A stretch of 64,000 nucleotides of DNA. It comes from Porodaedalea pini (taxonomy: Eukaryota > Basidiomycota > Agaricomycetes > Hymenochaetales > Hymenochaetaceae). The DNA lies in contig NBAY01000001.1 in the NCBI GenBank assembly GCA_002794775.1, forward strand, positions 434,001-498,000. The letters run 5' to 3'. The position numbers and the translations under genes are program-made. Of this stretch, positions 30,018 to 55,386 are shown piece by piece (the stretch's first letter is position 1; each line of letters starts with the position of its first letter). The notes below the pieces were generated by a model, which was not told the DNA's origin, did not search any database, and saw only the letters and a list, made by a program, of their open reading frames with translations.

Positions 30018-30581
30018 TTAAAGAAGTGGACGTTTAATCAGGTCAGTCCTTCTGGAAGCGTCTACGCAAAAGGGAGGGAGAGAAGCCTCACCGTGGAGGA
30101 TGACTTTCTGTCCTGCAAGCGCACACGCGTTGCGTTGCCACTCGTCCATGAAGTTGACGCGCCGCCGCGTGCCCGGAGGAGAGGGCGAGGGCGAGTCGAG
30201 GTGCGTGCTCCGTCGTTCGGTGTTTATCGGGCGGGATCGGTCTGGCGGCGAACCGTCTGAGTAATTTTACGAACGGGATGAAATCAGTCGCATTTTTACA
30301 GATCAAGGAAGTTGAAGCGCACCGCGGAGCGTTAATGGTGCGACGCCGTCGCTATTCGAGCGCCTATACTGTGCATCAGAACTTCCTTCCTCCCCTGCGT
30401 GTTCGCGCTCGCGGTCGTGTTCATGCGAATGGCGCTTCCCGAGCGGCGCGCGCCGGCCCTCGAGCCCGTCGAGCCGGCGCAGCGTCTGCTGCCTCGCGGC
30501 CTCGGGCGTGCGCGGGTTGTGCACGACCTGCAGCACGTCGGCGATCTTTGCGGAGTTGTGGCGGGAATGTGAGGGTGGCAT
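30018..30581 (-). CDS. Con-6-like (conidiation-specific type) paralogue A
   Basis: Starts MPPSHSRHNSAKIADVLQVV at 30581. The N-terminal motif NPRTPEAARQQTLRRLDGLE has the Con-6-like shape (small residue, Pro, x, Ser/Thr, x, Glu, Ala-rich helix). A charged middle follows, then after a splice RRRVNFMDEWQRNACAL and LAGQKVILH, again like the Con-6 repeat (G-x-K-A-x-L). The last exon, HDASRRTDLIKRPLL, is divergent from the motif. Related to the gene at 37328 in both N- and C-terminal motifs. Role unknown; Con-6 proteins are small, stress- or development-induced fungal proteins. The exon joins are less certain than in paralogue B. Confidence 0.55.
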
Positions 30582-30912
30582 CTTTTTTTTTGTTCGTGTT
30601 GCGCTTTGAGTATCGGGTGGATATGTTAAGGGGGGAAAGAGTTGAGATGCAGGAGTCCGGCTTTTTAAGCGTTGAGGATATGCTATGCCTGGCTGCGGGC
30701 TTCTCGTCCCTTCTACAGCCCTAGCATTTATACGCACAAAAAATATAGCGTGTCAGGCCCGCCCCGGTCCATGGGCATAAGCACGTATCACAGGCCGCCT
30801 TCTCCAGTGGAGCACGCAGTGCCACGCGACCTTACGTCCTTACGTTTACCACATCTCTCTGCCCTTCCGCGATCTTCCGATTCCTTGCTTGAGACTTCGC
30901 GCTGGGAGATTA
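30582..30912. other. Upstream region of paralogue A up to the transposon
   Basis: Holds the likely promoter of paralogue A. No other gene seen. The Tc1-type element inserted at the TA 30911-30912. Confidence 0.4.
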
Positions 30913-31392
30913 CTGTATTTTTCACAAACAATGACAGTCGGTGAATATCACAAGTGTTTCTCGGACCTCGGTCCGAGTGAGGGAAGTGAGCATCTGAGCA
31001 GATTACAAATGCGACCGCGTGATGTCACAGTAGCTAGTAGTACAACCTGCGCGTCAAGCTGGCACGCGTCTGCTGCACTCACCCAGTGGCATGTAGTACA
31101 GCGGCATCCGTAACACCGCTAGGCAGCCATACCCAGTCTCCGAATATATTCTCTCAGCCGCTCACTATCAGCACACCACCAATTGTCAGCAACAAGCAAT
31201 TTTTGTGTGCCATCCACTGCAACTTTGTCGCAACTCTCCAACCGCCTCATAACTTCAAAAGACCACAGTTCTCTCCAGATCTTCTTTGCTGGCCTTTCCA
31301 AGGACATCTACCTAATAGCTAGGAGCTACACTTGTCCAGTACAACCAGGTCCAAGCCAACACTGAGAGCGACGACTCTATCAACAGGCTAGA
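30913..31392. repeat. Left terminal inverted repeat (480 bp)
   Basis: Matches 36457-36936 in reverse complement. It carries the promoter and 5' UTR of the companion gene, whose ATG begins at the last TIR base. It also has a 62-codon ORF on its minus strand (31119-31307), present identically in the other TIR; I do not know whether it is expressed. Confidence 0.93.
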
Positions 31393-32725
31393 TGGCACGG
31401 GCACCGTCAAGTGGAGTTGCTGAGGATGATGATACACAGAGTGTGCAAGGTACATCCAAATGAATTCTATACCTCTAACAGAAGCTAACTATGAGAAAGA
31501 AATTGGCTCTGATGAGGACGAAATAGAGATCGAGGCATCAGCATATGGCGAAGGAGTCCAGTACATTGTAACACTGATCGAATGGATCCCACCGGCAAAG
31601 CGCAAGAGAAGGAATCAAGAAAAGAGCTCGTCAAACTGTAGCATCAAGATCAACGAACATGCAGGTGTTGCTTTCTGGCTCAAGACTATCTTTTCTCAGT
31701 TCAACCGCATCGATCTTGCCGCTTTCCGTTACCCAGATCCAGCAACTTCTCTGCTCTCTACTGAGCGCTTCACCATCACATACACAGTACCACGCATCCA
31801 GCCAGTCTTGCTACCAATCAAATCTGCCAAAGACTATGAGACTATGGTCGAGGAGGCAGAAAAGAAGGGTGTACCAAGTGCAAAAATTACCATCTCAGAG
31901 AAAGAGGTAAAACAAGTTTTATTATTTGTCAATTGAAAAACTAAGTGTATCAAGCGAGTGGATGAGGAGGAGGACTCAGAGGATGATGAAGAAATACGTG
32001 TCGGTGCTCCACCCGCTAAGAAAAAGAAAACAAATGTGAGCTTAGTTTCTTCTGTGATTTTTCTGATATCTCCCTTGCTTTGCAATTGATATAACTACTT
32101 TCCAGCCTCTATCACGCGATGATGAGGCCATTGCAGACCTTATTATTCAGCTCGAAGAGAGATACAAGTGCCAGGACAACGCATGCAAGAACACACCGAA
32201 AACATGCTGGGTGCACCCGATCACAAGAAAACATATCCGCCTTGATCACAACCTCCTCTCTTTATGGGCCACAGCAATAGTAAGTTATATTTTCTACTGT
32301 GGATATATATCTAACAGGGCTTTTTAGATCGCTGGGGAAGGAGACGTCTCAGTTGAGCAGCCACCGAACTCAAAGGACTTTGATCCAGACAAGACATCTG
32401 CAACAGTTGATGGGCGACGTGCAGCTCGATCTAATGACGGCAATGATGCCTCAAAGGGCATAACAATCAACCTTGTTGATAATCGGGGCCAGCCGTCGAC
32501 AGGCAACTCAACAAAAAAAGCTGGGCCTCGTCTCTCACTGGACCAGTTCTGTACCACATACAAGCTGTCTGACGAAATCAAACAGAAGCTTTCTGACAAT
32601 AAAGTAACAGGACCACATGCACTGTCCTACCTATCCGATTCGCTATTGCTGGAAACCGTTGGGCTTCAGATTGGGGAGATGGCTGATGTACGATTTGCGG
32701 AGCAGGAATGGTCTGTCTCTTCCTG
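31392..32725 (+). CDS. Transposon companion protein with SAM-like C-terminus
   Basis: ATG at 31392 (MARAPSSGVAEDDDTQSVQ), then exons giving YEKEIGSDEDEIEIEASAYG, IEWIPPAKRKRR, HAGVAFWLKTIFSQFN, RVDEEEDSEDDEEIRVGAPP, the basic KKKK, a Cys/His segment KCQDNACKNTPKTCWVH with KHIRLDHNLLSLWATAI, and a C-terminal helical module (KLSDEIKQKLSDNKVTGPHA ... GLQIGEMADVRFAEQEW) resembling a SAM domain. Four introns; all joins keep frame to TGA at 32723. The Cys/His segment might bind DNA and KKKK might be a nuclear signal (inference). Its position just inside the TIR, facing the transposase, suggests it is a normal part of the element. I recognise the type as a repeated agaricomycete protein but know no function. 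Confidence 0.75.
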
Positions 32726-32865
32726 AGTTGTTCTGTAGTCTCGCTTTTACATGCTGTGTATTCTGCTTCAAACCACTGTATCACTCTGCAAACTACTCGC
32801 ATACTGTACTGATATATATTCTGTAATGCTAATTACATGACGAGAATACCTCTCAGTTCCTTTGT

Positions 32866-33076
32866 GTCTTCCCTTTTCTTGCTACCCGTCAAGGAATATC
32901 AGATTGTCAACTTCTTCCTCCCAAAGCTCAAGGATGGGGACATCTCATGAGGGTCACGCCCGTGCAGAAGCAGACCAGCACCGGCTAAAGTTCTCACTCC
33001 AAGATGTTCGTCGCCATTGGTGACTTTGACGGCCACGTAGGTCTTGGTGTCAAGTGCGCGAAGGAAGTTGCGACGC
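32866..33076 (+). pseudogene. Captured fragment of 40S ribosomal protein S2 (uS5)
   Basis: Reads LPVKEYQIVNFFLPKLKD, then in a shifted frame MRVTPVQKQTSTG, a stop, and [20 protein letters not shown]: three consecutive segments of S2, with the highly conserved [15 protein letters not shown] block. It ends abruptly near 33076, where the WD40 fragment begins. A frameshift and a stop show it is not functional. Confidence 0.85.
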
Positions 33077-33330
33077 CGTTATCCGCAATGTGTTTTCCGT
33101 CAGCTGAGAAAGAGACGGACCAAACACCGGCCGTGTGCCCTTCCAGAGCCTTCAGCCATAATCCAGTGCGTGGTGCAAAGGAGTCGTCGAAAGAGCGTAC
33201 CTTACCTCGCGAAATCGCATCACCACTACCCGCCGATGCTGGGCATGACGTGTCGTGTTTGAGAATATCCTTGAGGAAATTGACGGATGTGTCGAGGTCA
33301 TGGGAGGAAGGGGGCACGAGCTCCAGTGGG
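33077..33330 (-). pseudogene. Captured fragment of a WD40 protein
   Basis: Minus strand: [40 protein letters not shown], then [18 protein letters not shown], the start of a WD40 repeat (GH...SVSFS.DG..IA). The repeat is cut where the S2 fragment starts. The parent gene is not identified. Confidence 0.65.
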
Positions 33331-33559
33331 AGATTTGAAATGAGTTAGACCAGAAGAGTCGATCGCTAGAGAGACGACTTACTTCTGTAAATGAGACTCA
33401 TAGCGACGTGAAACTCAGTTCCGCGTCGGCAAGAGCCCATATCTTTGTCAACGTGTTTTTATCCAATCCAGTATACCCCTTCAAAGGTGAAACAAACATA
33501 CCGACACAGCAACGGAAGTCGTTGAGTCATTCACCTTTGGTTCCTTCATGTACTAGACA

Positions 33560-34572
33560 CTGGTAGGTTCATCGTCACAGAAGCCCTTGGCGTATGCAAT
33601 GTATGGTAGATATGTATATCTCTTTTCGTGGTACTTGCCGACAATCAAAGGATCTAGAGAATTTATTAGCGACACGTTGTGAAAGGACAAAGAGTTCACC
33701 CTACGGTGTCCCCCCTTCAAGAATGCCTCAGGAGACGACGCGCAGAGCGTTCGAGATGGGTGGTGGTCGTCGTCGTCATCGTCGTCAATTTCCGCGTTGA
33801 GCAGAGTGATCCTGCATGAGCAAGGTTAAAGTTGAAGCGTGTTCGGTCGCGGCGGGTCCCAATCGAGAGAATCGAGAGTGTGGGCCGGGACGGTTTGCGC
33901 AGCGGATAAAAACACGTTCAACAGTGAGCACAAATTCGTCCCCGACGACGAGGGCAGCGAAGAAGCACAAGACGTACCGCGATCAACAGGGTCGAGAGAG
34001 AAGGAGAGAAAAATAAGAGAGGACAACAAGCAGGTGTAGCACCTTGAAAACGCAGAGCAGATGGGATCAGCGCACTGCCCGTGATAGCGGCTGATCGTTT
34101 CGTCGAGGGCGCTGGGACGGCATATACGAGGGCGACGACGATGCAGACACGGTCTTGCTGAGCATCGGGACGAGGGGCGGGGTGCGGCGGGGAGACCAAG
34201 TAGTGCGAAGGGTGCAACAGCGGGGGTTTGAAGGCAAGCGTCGAGTTGAAATTTCGCGACGGCGTTATAAACAGCGGGATCCCGGCTGCCTGCCTGAATG
34301 CGTGCCTCAAGCCAGGACATGATCAACGTCAACCTGTTGCACGACTCAACTTCCTGCACGGGTTCATCGATAGGGAAGTTTCCGGTAACCGACGCAAGCA
34401 AGCCCTGGTCGTTGTCTTATTGCAATTGACATCCAGCAGACCACCAACGACTTGCGGCGTACGCGCAGAATTGACCTGCTGAATGTAAACTTCGACAAGC
34501 TTTGTGAGCTCATTCTGAAAAAGATAGAACACAAGGTCGTGCACGAAATCGAATCGATCGCAGGCGATGATG
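33560..34572 (-). pseudogene. Captured fragments of clathrin heavy chain
   Basis: From right to left: CDRFDFVHDLVFYLF, QNELTKLVEVYIQQVNSART, PQVVGGLLDVNC, SVTGNFPIDEPVQEVE, RLTLIMSWLEARIQAGSRDP, AVYNAVAK, then after unrelated DNA (about 34230-33690) IVGKYHEKRYTYLPYIAYAK and GFCDDE. These follow each other in the order of the clathrin heavy-chain repeats. Frame changes, a stop and the intervening segment show decay. Near 33385-33480 a further piece (GLDKNTLTKIWALADAE) resembles an EH domain; that call is weak. Confidence 0.82.
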
Positions 34573-35010
34573 AATAGAAGCTCACGACAGATGACGGTGA
34601 TGTGTGCCTCGGGGAAGATGTCCGGCCTGAGGAGGTCGAGGCAGGAGCTGCCGGCAAAGTACTCAATGAGCGCGCCGTAGTGGCGCGACACGTTCGCGCT
34701 GTGCGAGATGCGTGATTTCCTGCTGTATCTCCGGGATGTCGTTGTCCGTGTCCTCAAGACCTGCATTGAGCCCAAGTTGGTAAATTTAGTATATATGCAT
34801 GAGAAAACAAGGGAGGAGGGGTGAGAGGGTCCCCGGTGCGCACCAATTTGCTTGATTGCAACGATCTGCTTGGTGTCATTGTGCATGCCCTTGTAGACGG
34901 TGCCAGCGCCCAGCTTCTCGAGTATCGCATACTGGCTCGCTGGCTTGTTGTTCAGCGCCAGACATAGCAGGCAATGCCGCGACGGCGTGTGATTGCTCGC
35001 TATTTTGTTG
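34573..35010 (-). pseudogene. Captured N-terminal fragment of a Ste20-type protein kinase, fused to clathrin
   Basis: Minus strand: MSGAEQQASE, a frame change, YAILEKLGAGTVYKGMHND and KQIVAIKQI (glycine loop and ATP lysine), an intron, EDTDNDIPEIQQEITHLA, then IEYFAGSSCLDLLRPDIFPE and AHITVICREL. Relative to Ste20/germinal-centre kinases, several residues of the glycine loop and the hinge region before EYFAG are missing. The open frame 34329-35027 runs from the kinase straight into clathrin at about 34575. The retained intron means capture from genomic DNA rather than mRNA. Confidence 0.85.
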
Positions 35011-35269
35011 TTCACGATGTATGGCACTTCCAGTGAGATGGGTGATGAGGGTAGAGAACAAGTCGCAAGCGAGGTTCAGCAAAAGAATAACTCGGACCCG
35101 ACAACTTCATTGCTAAGCATATCGCATTGATGGCTTTGCCGTTCTGTTGTGTTTCATTTAGTCAAAGGACAATCAGATGTGCCACAAATACCAATGTGGT
35201 TGAAAAAGATCTGCTTCCATTGTGCGAGTGCGAGCTGCGCATGGGTATAGAAATGAGTACATGACACTG
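35011..35269. other. Spacer between kinase fragment and transposase stop
   Basis: About 260 bp with no recognised coding sequence; the origin (host flank or transposon 3' UTR) is unclear. Confidence 0.3.
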
Positions 35270-36345
35270 TCAGTCGTCAAAATGAAAACCTGAATGAGAA
35301 AAAAAGCCTTCTGCCATTTCCACAGTGATAATTTCACAGGCTCGATAGAGCTCATAGTGAGGTGAACGAGCGTACAAAAATGATTTCCCCTTCCGCCGAA
35401 TATAAGCCTTGATAATTGCAAATGCTTGTTCAATCGGATTATAGTCTGGTGAGTAAGGTGGTAAGTATTCGATTCGGCAGCCTTTTTTTTTGACAGAAAG
35501 TCAGCGAGATTATAGATACAGATTTTATGGGACATACCATAGCTTTCAACCAGTTCAGTGACTTCAACAGAGTGATGGATATGAGCATTGTCCATCACAA
35601 GGACACTTCGTCTGCCTGGGTATGGCTCACAGCGAGGAAGCTATAAAAATTATTCAATACTTCCACTAAATAGAATAGGTTTACTTACTACGTGATTGCG
35701 AAGAAAATCTAAAAAGTATTCATGAGTAAATGAGCCTTCAAGTACCTTGTAGGCAACTATTCCAGTAATGTCCATGGCTGGTAGAAGAGAATATCGTCGG
35801 CCTCGAATGAATGGAGCAGTGGCGTCTGCTGACTGGCCTCGAACTGAGCGCCCATAGGACCGAAAGTAAGTGCGTTCATCTTTTGCAGATTCATCAATGC
35901 ACAGGATTGATTCAATTGGGTGCTGCGAGATGCGTCGTCTAAAGTCTGCCCTTTTGATTGGATCTCTTTCTTGAGCTATCTTGTGCAATTTTTTGCGGGA
36001 AAAACTTTCACGAATTAGGGTGCGATGGATAGTGGATGTTGAAACGGTTATTGAGCGATGAATATCCAGTTGGTGCTGGTATTCGTCAAGAAACATGTCA
36101 GGTTTGTGTTTAGTTAGAGCCGTAAGATAGTCGACATCATCCCTGAGCAGAATTCGTGGGGCACCTTGTCCAATAGCCTTTGCACGAGTTACTGAACCAG
36201 TCTCCTTCTTATGTGCCTTTGCCCTCCAGAATGTGCTCTCAGAGAACTCCACAATCTCCAGTATTTCCTCCAATGTGTCTGTACCGCGACCATGCAAGCG
36301 TAGAGCAATCTCTTTGCGATCATCTGCAACATGTCTGTTTGGCAT
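35270..36345 (-). CDS. Tc1-like DD34E transposase, apparently intact
   Basis: About 320 aa in three exons. It cuts out and reinserts the element at TA sites. The N-terminal helix-turn-helix pair runs MPNRHVADDRKEIALRLHGR through ESTFWRAKAHKK. The catalytic domain has the first Asp in LCIDESAKDERTYFRSYGR, the second Asp in VLVMDNAHIHH, and Glu in YLPPYSPDYNPIE. Counting across the second intron gives exactly 34 residues between the second Asp and the Glu (DD34E, Tc1 type). The C-terminus YELYRACEIITVEMAEGFFS ends at 35270. Two introns (about 50 and 56 nt) with good GT-AG sites. No stops or frameshifts seen. Confidence 0.93.
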
Positions 36346-36456
36346 AGCGGTGCATCACTTCTGGTATGACCAGACGTTGCAGAGCACTTCGAGACTGTGT
36401 TTTATGAGCTAATAACATCTGGAAACAAAGAAAATGACACACTTCTGGCCTTAACT

Positions 36457-36936
36457 TCTAGCCTGTTGATAGAGTCGTCGCTCTCAGTGTTGGCTTGGAC
36501 CTGGTTGTACTGGACAAGTGTAGCTCCTAGCTATTAGGTAGATGTCCTTGGAAAGGCCAGCAAAGAAGATCTGGAGAGAACTGTGGTCTTTTGAAGTTAT
36601 GAGGCGGTTGGAGAGTTGCGACAAAGTTGCAGTGGATGGCACACAAAAATTGCTTGTTGCTGACAATTGGTGGTGTGCTGATAGTGAGCGGCTGAGAGAA
36701 TATATTCGGAGACTGGGTATGGCTGCCTAGCGGTGTTACGGATGCCGCTGTACTACATGCCACTGGGTGAGTGCAGCAGACGCGTGCCAGCTTGACGCGC
36801 AGGTTGTACTACTAGCTACTGTGACATCACGCGGTCGCATTTGTAATCTGCTCAGATGCTCACTTCCCTCACTCGGACCGAGGTCCGAGAAACACTTGTG
36901 ATATTCACCGACTGTCATTGTTTGTGAAAAATACAG
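36457..36936. repeat. Right terminal inverted repeat (480 bp)
   Basis: Reverse complement of 30913-31392. It lies 111 bp before the transposase start and probably supplies its promoter. Confidence 0.93.
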
Positions 36937-36938
36937 TA

Positions 36939-37327: not shown

Positions 37328-37984
37328 TCATTCGCAAACTTCACCATGGAACGCAAGCAGCTCGCGCGCGTGCTCTTTGCGCACCTCGGAGGCCCTTGGA
37401 TCTGCAAAGCACATGAGTCACCTCAGAGATGAAAGAAGGAAAGAAGGGCGAATGGAAGACGTACCGTGCAGGGTGGCCTTCTGCCCTTCGAGCATGTGCG
37501 TCGGCTGTGTCTCATCCACGAAGCCAACGTGCTTGGGCGGGCTGCCCGCGGAGCTCGAGCTCGTGTCAGACGCGGAATCGGGCGACGAGTTGAGCTTGGA
37601 GGAGGCGCGCCGGCGGAGCATGCGTTTCGGCGTCATGCACTCGTTCGCGTGCGTATCTGCATGTACATACGCCATCAGCTTCAGATTATTTTCTCCTGTA
37701 AGAAGAGCTTGGAACGCATGCTTACTGCGCACGGTCTCCGGATCAAGGTCATTCTCCTCCTTCAGGTCCTCCTTATCTTCTTCCTCGACCCTTCTTCCTT
37801 CATCAAGGGCAGCCGCAGCCGCCTGCTCAACCTCTGCCGGCATCTCCTCCCCACTATCAAACCCATCCAACTTCCTCAGAGCCCGCTTCTTCGCCGCCTC
37901 AGAGATATCCGGGTCCTCCAGAGCCGTGCGCAGGGCAGTTGGCGCGATGCTCGTCTTGTGTTCTCCGCTCCTCGTGACGACCAT
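37328..37984 (-). CDS. Con-6-like (conidiation-specific type) paralogue B
   Basis: Starts MVVTRSGEHKTSIAPTALRT at 37984. The N-terminal helix LEDPDISEAAKKRALRKLDG matches the Con-6 repeat pattern. An acidic linker follows, then SPPKHVGFVDETQPTHMLEG and the second repeat QKATLHDPRASEVRKEHARE ending FHGEVCE. The last exon joins at ATLH|DPRA across an intron (about 37392-37465), which replaces the meaningless read-through. A further 69-nt intron within 37640-37720 is possible because a GT...AG pair there keeps the frame. Two degenerate Con-6 units are typical of basidiomycete relatives. Function unknown, probably stress- or spore-related. Paralogue of the gene at 30018. Confidence 0.75.
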
Positions 37985-38546
37985 CCTTGCAAGTGAGTCG
38001 AAGACTATGAATCAAAAAATTTCAAGCTTCAAGTTTCTTCCAAGCGGGTGGTTCTAGTGTGCGAGTCGTTGGACGTAAGATATGTCCTTCTTTGCGTGCT
38101 GTTTGTGGATAGTGGATTGGATTGTACAGGGTAAGGGACCTCATTTCGCGTCCTTTATATGCGCGCTTTCAAGTTGGAGCGCGGCTTGCGTAGACAGGAG
38201 CTACCGCGATGCGTTGACGTCATTCTGGTCGTGACTGGGGGTGGCTGTGTATAGCGAAAAGCTTAACTTTATTTTCTTATTTTGATCGGATTACGTCGTG
38301 AAAAAAAATTCAGCATTTGAGTGGTTTATGCAAAGCTGAAAGGGAGATAGGGATACATAGTGTATATACAGATGGAACAGAGGTTAGTGGGACATGAGGA
38401 CGTGGGACTGTGAGAAAAGAAGCTGTACATATGGGTGAGACACTCGAGTAGTCAAGAAATTAAAAAAAAAACATATCCAAGAGCAAAATGGAAAGCGCCG
38501 TTCAAATCCCACAGATAAATTTTGGAGTATCTTACATGAGATGGCG
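37985..38546. other. Intergenic
   Basis: Promoter of paralogue B and the 3' UTR of the HbrB-like gene; A-runs at 38301 and 38462. No gene seen. Confidence 0.4.
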
Positions 38547-55133: not shown

Positions 55134-55386
55134 CTGTGTTTTTCACAAATAATGACAGTCAGAAAGAAAGGAATGTTTCACGGGTGGTCGCGGCTTCAAA
55201 GCGAGATCAGGTGAGGCCGTTGTTCCGACTATTCTGGCACCAATGGACCAATCACAGGCCTGGAACGGCTGACCAACATAAATTGTAAATCGAGTTGACG
55301 TCAGAAACTCAATAAATATGGGTGTTCCGAAACACTTTCACCGTTTCACGATACTCGCGGACTGTCATTAGTTGTGAAAAACACAG
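55134..55386. mobile_element. 253-bp non-autonomous relative of the Tc1-type element
   Basis: Ends CTGTGTTTTTCACAAATAAT and, reversed, CTGTGTTTTTCACAACTAAT, flanked by TA (55132-55133 and 55387-55388). The first 28 bp match the tips of the 6-kb element (CTGTATTTTTCACAAACAAT) at most positions. No ORF. A MITE probably moved by the same or a related transposase; older, because its two ends have diverged from each other. It lies between the HAD gene 3' end and the start of the protease-like gene. Confidence 0.88.

Follow-up and report, generated by a model that had tools for sequence, protein, structure and literature searches.

We analysed a 64,000-bp stretch of the genome of the basidiomycete Porodaedalea pini, hereafter the window (assembly GCA_002794775.1, contig NBAY01000001.1, positions 434,001 to 498,000), in which a complete Tc1-type transposable element (TE) of 6,024 bp lies at window positions 30913-36936. 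Its two terminal inverted repeats (TIRs), at 30913-31392 on the plus strand and 36457-36936 on the minus strand, are each 480 bp long and match without a mismatch. They are bordered by the TA target-site dinucleotide at 30911-30912 on the left and 36937-36938 on the right. An initial annotation of this DNA had described a 6-kb Tc1-type element with TA-flanked 480-bp TIRs, and its coordinates were exact. Two genes point toward each other from the two ends of the element, and the space between their 3' ends is filled with fragments of host genes.

A second full-length copy was found in the genome, that is, the one assembly that holds the window (53.3 Mb in 201 contigs, labelled C1, C4 and so on); only the best candidates of each search were scored, so that all copy counts in the genome are lower bounds. 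This copy, at C1:354626-360649, is on the same contig, 104 kb away and in the opposite orientation, and is likewise 6,024 bp long. The two copies differ by 3 substitutions in 6,024 positions, at window 33768, 34523 and 35582. The second copy has its own TA pair, and its 100-bp flanks on each side share nothing with those of the window copy, whose 400-bp left flank matched only itself in the genome. Since the TA pair is its own and the flanks are unrelated, the element and its cargo move as one unit. Both copies thus carry the TA target-site duplication of Tc1/mariner elements, and identical cargo is present in 2 of 2 full-length copies, which is transduplication in the sense of Manning et al. 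2013. The 480-bp TIRs depart from the length that is typical of, but does not define, this group, since Tc1/mariner TIRs are generally shorter than 100 bp according to Tan et al. 2021 (PMC8277862). The idea that the two TIRs came from two different insertions was excluded by the second copy, which has the same ends, TA sites and cargo.

The two genes of the element

The transposase gene is on the minus strand at 35270-36345, with its ATG at 36345 and its stop codon ending at 35270. Its three exons are separated by introns at 35641-35688 and 35482-35537 and encode 323 residues. The catalytic triad consists of D151, D236 and E271, the last two separated by 34 residues as in DD34E transposases; in an alignment of 16 sequences D236 and E271 were invariant and D151 nearly so. 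The frame of the last exon matched DDE_3 (PF13358) with 37.8 bits against a cut-off of 28.6, and that of the first exon scored 24.8, below the cut-off. The best solved relative was Sleeping Beauty (E 8e-4). A protein search returned 302 relatives at E <= 0.001, and the ten best-scoring among the matches listed were 45-48% identical to the query, the named ones being from the agaricomycetes Coprinellus, Antrodiella, Mycena and Agrocybe. Homology to Tc1 transposases is also indicated by the presence of PF13358 in the agaricomycete relatives at 48% identity. The frame is open in both copies, with a single residue difference at 239, close to the second Asp. The description of an intact-looking DD34E transposase was therefore borne out by a 323-residue open frame with its D151/D236/E271 triad, as was that of a companion gene convergent with it.

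The companion gene is on the plus strand at 31392-32726 and would encode about 372 residues in five predicted exons, with predicted introns at 31450-31499, 31907-31954, 32036-32105 and 32280-32327. Six splice models are possible, the alternatives affecting the second and third introns. Its ATG begins on the final base of the left TIR (31392), and the gene is directed towards the transposase gene. None of its three long exon frames matched Pfam at E <= 0.1, and within the genome the last exon was matched only in the two element copies. A protein search with the single query found one relative; when repeated with that pair aligned, it found 16, of which 14 are named as Suillus, and this is a lower bound because scoring was limited to the 7,995 candidates with most words in common. 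These relatives (P0121-P0136) form an unnamed protein family, several members of which have a C-x-D/N-x-ACP-type motif followed by CW. The last exon is predicted to form a C-terminal five-helix bundle resembling SAM or HhH domains, between which the prediction does not separate; it was made from a 15-sequence alignment in which only four rows besides the query span the bundle. A tblastn comparison of the companion with a different Tc1-like element of this genome, on contig C148, gave no match at E 10.

Together with the second copy, these features make it highly probable that the element is a recently mobile and apparently autonomous Tc1-type (DD34E) transposon carrying host-gene cargo.

Cargo pieces from six or more host loci

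The cargo block extends from 32869 to 35087 (2,219 bp), leaving arms of 1,956 bp on the left and 1,849 bp on the right. A genome search with 32900-35160 gave 11 matches, namely the two element copies and nine donor or donor-paralogue places. Each of the nine covers one part only, and the full block is confined to the two TIR-bounded copies. With E-values of 3.5e-205 to 2.2e-10, the donor matches are far from chance. Local alignments resolved the cargo into a mosaic drawn from six or more separate places in this genome, five of six on other contigs and the remaining one on the contig of the window. Sequence that is not TE thus lies between the TIR ends of a TE, as in Pack-TIRs in the sense of Tan et al. 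2021. A pre-existing pseudogene array, which would have held the same pieces together elsewhere, was not seen in the assembly, where every match outside the elements covers a single part.

The block begins beside the companion gene with a fragment of ribosomal protein S2 (uS5) on the plus strand (32869-33086; donor at C11:627.5 kb, 33/210 substitutions). It is followed on the minus strand by a WD40-like scrap with approximate limits (about 33087-33161) and by a fragment of a PAN1-like EH/WH2 gene (33162-33469; donor C64/C27, 40/308 substitutions). After an unassigned gap at 33470-33508, a 50-bp piece of an unnamed gene lies on the plus strand at 33509-33558, with 90% identity to its donor at C1:637.6 kb, about 170 kb from the element. 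All remaining pieces are on the minus strand. The first half of a clathrin heavy chain fragment (33567-33733; C4:995.0 kb, 22/166 substitutions) is separated from the second half (34249-34573; C4:994.6-994.9 kb, 34/325 substitutions) by what we call the C8 piece (33734-34237; C8:927.0-927.5 kb, 22/485 substitutions), which thus lies inside the clathrin piece. A Ste20-type kinase fragment (34573-35087; C68:24.0-24.6 kb, 70/495 substitutions) ends the block. Frame-breaking indels are present in the cargo pieces.

Pfam domains identified the donors as S2 (PF00333 and PF03719), clathrin (PF00637), a kinase (PF00069) and an EH/WH2 protein (PF12763 and PF02205); the more specific names PAN1 and Ste20 are ones we presume from the domain sets and the sequences. 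The PAN1-like piece matches C64 and C27 equally, and a weaker paralogue is on C14. The 7 kb around this gene are duplicated between C27 and C64 at 99.86% identity, either as an uncollapsed second haplotype or as a recent duplication. The C8 donor region lies upstream of a glutamine-rich frame of 1,010 aa and is overlapped by a 209-aa stop-to-stop frame. The C8 piece was also considered as a transposon insertion, and this was rejected, as it has one match outside the elements and no target duplication was seen at its edges.

The initial annotation had listed S2, a WD40 protein, clathrin heavy chain and a Ste20-type kinase as the sources. Three of these, S2, clathrin and the kinase, are firm, with donors at separate places in the genome, while the PAN1-like, C8 and 50-bp pieces and the split of clathrin had been overlooked. 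The WD40 assignment is weak: the Pfam match (E 8.7e-5) reaches 23.4 bits against a cut-off of 27, and a genome search for a DNA parent returned two matches, both of them the element copies. At the protein level the scrap matched three places in the genome with 55-60% over 30-32 aa. Alignment of the cargo to its parents, introns included, showed that the clathrin and kinase pieces each retain an intron (with limits judged by eye on the frames of the donors). Since the introns are kept, the templates of capture were DNA, and capture through mRNA is ruled out.

Divergence of the captured pieces

Apart from the C8 piece, the pieces longer than 100 bp have diverged by 10.5-15.7% from their donors. 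The C8 piece differs at 22 of 485 positions, fewer than clathrin codon positions 1 and 2 (32/317; Fisher p 0.0036) or the same positions pooled over S2, clathrin, kinase and PAN1 (83/832; p 0.0003). Its total difference of 4.5% is a ceiling on its own decay, however constrained its parent has been. In the donor, the two clathrin halves are collinear and separated by no more than 19 bp (19 bp by BLAST, perhaps less by finer alignment), and their divergences do not differ (p 0.37). Since they are collinear and nearly adjoining in the donor, the halves are most simply explained as one capture that was later split by the C8 piece. As the clathrin piece is split by a much less diverged one, the cargo was probably gathered in two or more rounds of capture.

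By codon position 1/2/3, the differences are 8/70, 9/69 and 16/71 for S2; 9/50, 5/50 and 8/51 for the first clathrin half; 11/109, 7/108 and 16/108 for the second; 16/105, 6/108 and 17/105 for the kinase; and 8/81, 4/82 and 18/82 for PAN1. Pooled, positions 1 and 2 differ at 83/832 (0.10) and position 3 at 75/417 (0.18), a ratio of 1.8. We reasoned that free decay compared with a constrained parent should give a ratio of about 2, and two functional genes a much higher one. The counts therefore fit neutral decay of the cargo after capture. On this reasoning the age of the older layer of cargo is about 0.10 neutral substitutions per site, and that of the C8 piece at most 0.045. The two element copies differ by 0.0005 per site. 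Since this is so small compared with either layer, the element moved long after it had been loaded.

Relatives of the element and its surroundings

The whole genome was scanned with the 27-bp terminal sequence, allowing up to three mismatches. The 27 terminal sites found make up the two full-length pairs, 10 short pairs and three single ends. Nine of the short pairs are 252-287 bp long and one, of 961 bp, has another insert inside; one of the single ends belongs to a 276-bp copy with a shortened other end. One of the nine is a non-autonomous miniature relative of 253 bp with the same 27-bp ends, at window 55134-55386. A miniature copy on C84 (locus L054, 4010-4970) appeared by eye to be interrupted by a small element with inverted ends of its own. 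A relic on C6 at about 651.15-651.41 kb (L056, 4652-4908) resembles the inner TIR through to the transposase start at 76-91% identity.

The C148 element belongs to a different family. It spans 9,360 bp (C148:2097-11456; L024, L068 and L025) and has 2,000-bp perfect TIRs with a Tc1-like transposase gene in each, TA at its ends and further long frames inside. DNA similarity assigns 23 of the 28 loci L023-L050 to this family. On either side of the window element are two minus-strand frames, 30303-30752 and 37418-38011, which by eye share a similar short motif and are perhaps paralogues either side of the insertion; neither matched Pfam at E <= 0.01.

Discussion

We propose that the host DNA was taken up during gap repair. 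Both genes start at or just inside the TIRs, which may carry the promoters of both. If the element was excised or broken and the gap refilled by synthesis starting from both arms, this synthesis could have strayed onto ectopic host templates before the ends were joined. Host DNA would thereby be placed mid-element, beyond both 3' ends, where it harms neither gene, and later rounds of capture would land in older filler. The cargo would then be a passenger that decays neutrally and is moved by the element's own transposase. The gap-filling and template-switching models of Tan et al. 2021 (PMC8277862) suit this element. The initial annotation had placed the cargo between the convergent 3' ends as the only site harming neither gene. 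The position holds, but avoidance of harm may not be its sole explanation, since both selection and abortive gap repair predict a central cargo.

Several observations weigh against this interpretation. No clear microhomology was seen at the five cargo joins inspected by eye, so that the joins give no positive support to template switching over the end joining of free fragments. That the C8 piece arrived later presupposes comparable mutation rates across the cargo and the absence of gene conversion with the C8 locus. The benchmark ratio of about 2 is a reasoned expectation; the third-position excess in PAN1 (18/82 against 4/82 at position 2) goes beyond the model, and position 2 of the kinase is low (6/108). 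The term autonomous is based on the open frames and the two near-identical copies. Finally, the scan for 27-bp ends found no full-length copy in the genome that was free of cargo or differently loaded, so the state before capture is not visible here.

An alternative is that the mosaic was built in another species or lineage and that the loaded element arrived recently by horizontal transfer or introgression. This would account for a cargo that is 4.5-16% from the donors in this genome although the copies differ by 3/6,024, for the lack of any further full-length copy found in the genome, and for a companion whose last exon occurs within the genome only in the two copies and whose distant relatives are mostly from Suillus. 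However, the S2 and clathrin differences are less concentrated at third positions than would be expected between species, and the short relatives with the same 27-bp ends, together with the old C6 relic, point to a long residence of the wider family in this genome. We therefore consider a recent arrival doubtful.

It is also conceivable that all host pieces came from one chaotic repair event, in a chain of template switches that included a return to clathrin. A polymerase that left clathrin for C8 and returned a few bases on would yield the identical map, and, C8 aside, all pieces above 100 bp are similarly diverged. Yet the C8 piece is significantly less diverged than its neighbours, and its total difference caps its decay at 4.5%. 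A single event is thus unlikely, and we retain capture in rounds as the preferred explanation.

A selected function of the cargo, in which read-through transcripts silence or regulate the donors, might be suspected from the S2 piece, which follows the companion stop by 142 bp in the sense direction, and from the clathrin and kinase pieces, which are likewise in sense orientation and lie downstream of the transposase gene; the frame-breaking indels and the near-neutral codon-position pattern make it very improbable. That the copies arose by segmental duplication of a dead element, as their location 104 kb apart on one contig in opposite orientation might suggest, is hardly credible, since their identity breaks off precisely where the TIRs end and each copy is bordered by TA on either side, which contradicts such an origin, and the left flank of the window copy, the one flank searched, is single-copy.

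The layout recalls a system in plants. MuDR/Mutator of maize has long TIRs that carry the promoters of two convergent genes, and it generates 9-bp target duplications. The element described here shares the convergent gene layout and differs in its unrelated transposase and in its target duplications. Helitrons are rolling-circle elements without TIRs. Those of Pleurotus are reported to capture genes (PMC4289320) and so resemble our element as gene-capturing DNA transposons of an agaricomycete.

The initial annotation had called a Tc1/mariner-type example with a live transposase and multi-gene cargo unusual. Gene capture by Tc1/mariner elements has already been published from animals, from rice and from a fungus (PMC3538342, PMC8277862, PMC8903248). 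Manning et al. 2013 (PMC3538342) described a Tc1/Mariner family of 46 members in Pyrenophora tritici-repentis with two coding regions, one of them apparently sequestered. That family carries one captured open reading frame, whereas our element combines broken and nested pieces of at least six donors with a companion gene and exists in just two copies. Tan et al. 2021 (PMC8277862) assigned 115 of 370 animal Pack-TIRs to TcMariner, which are like our element in having host DNA between Tc1/mariner ends; they reported that breakpoints are biased to the element interior and proposed gap filling or fork stalling with template switching. The animal Pack-TIRs are mostly single-copy, which was explained by gap filling without transposition, while our element has an open transposase and moved when loaded. 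The rice Pack-Mariners of Gisby and Catoni 2022 (PMC8903248) combine mariner-type ends with coding DNA, 19% of them from more than one locus. They are non-autonomous by definition and by filter and belong to another host kingdom, whereas our element has a transposase. With an open transposase inside, it falls outside their strict definition of Pack-TYPE elements, though it works like one.

No multi-donor nested Tc1/mariner cargo was announced among the open-licence papers listed in our searches, as judged by titles and the beginnings of abstracts. Within the literature so covered, what is new is the combination: the carrier is apparently autonomous, drew on six or more donors, has its pieces in nested strata and moved once loaded. 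The published gene-capturing TIR elements compared here are mostly non-autonomous or single-copy. That the element has moved with its load suggests that a self-sufficient transposon can take up host DNA repeatedly and remain able to jump. The route of capture becomes testable as well, in a carrier that has an open transposase and a companion gene, has moved after loading and contains one piece inside an older one. On balance we favor the view that this Tc1-type transposon has been a long-running collector of host DNA, which over about 0.1 neutral substitutions per site would have acquired fragments of six or more host loci in two rounds or more. Every fragment would have entered between the convergent genes, and the element would have remained mobile all along, so that its middle may be read as a stratified and datable record of capture.

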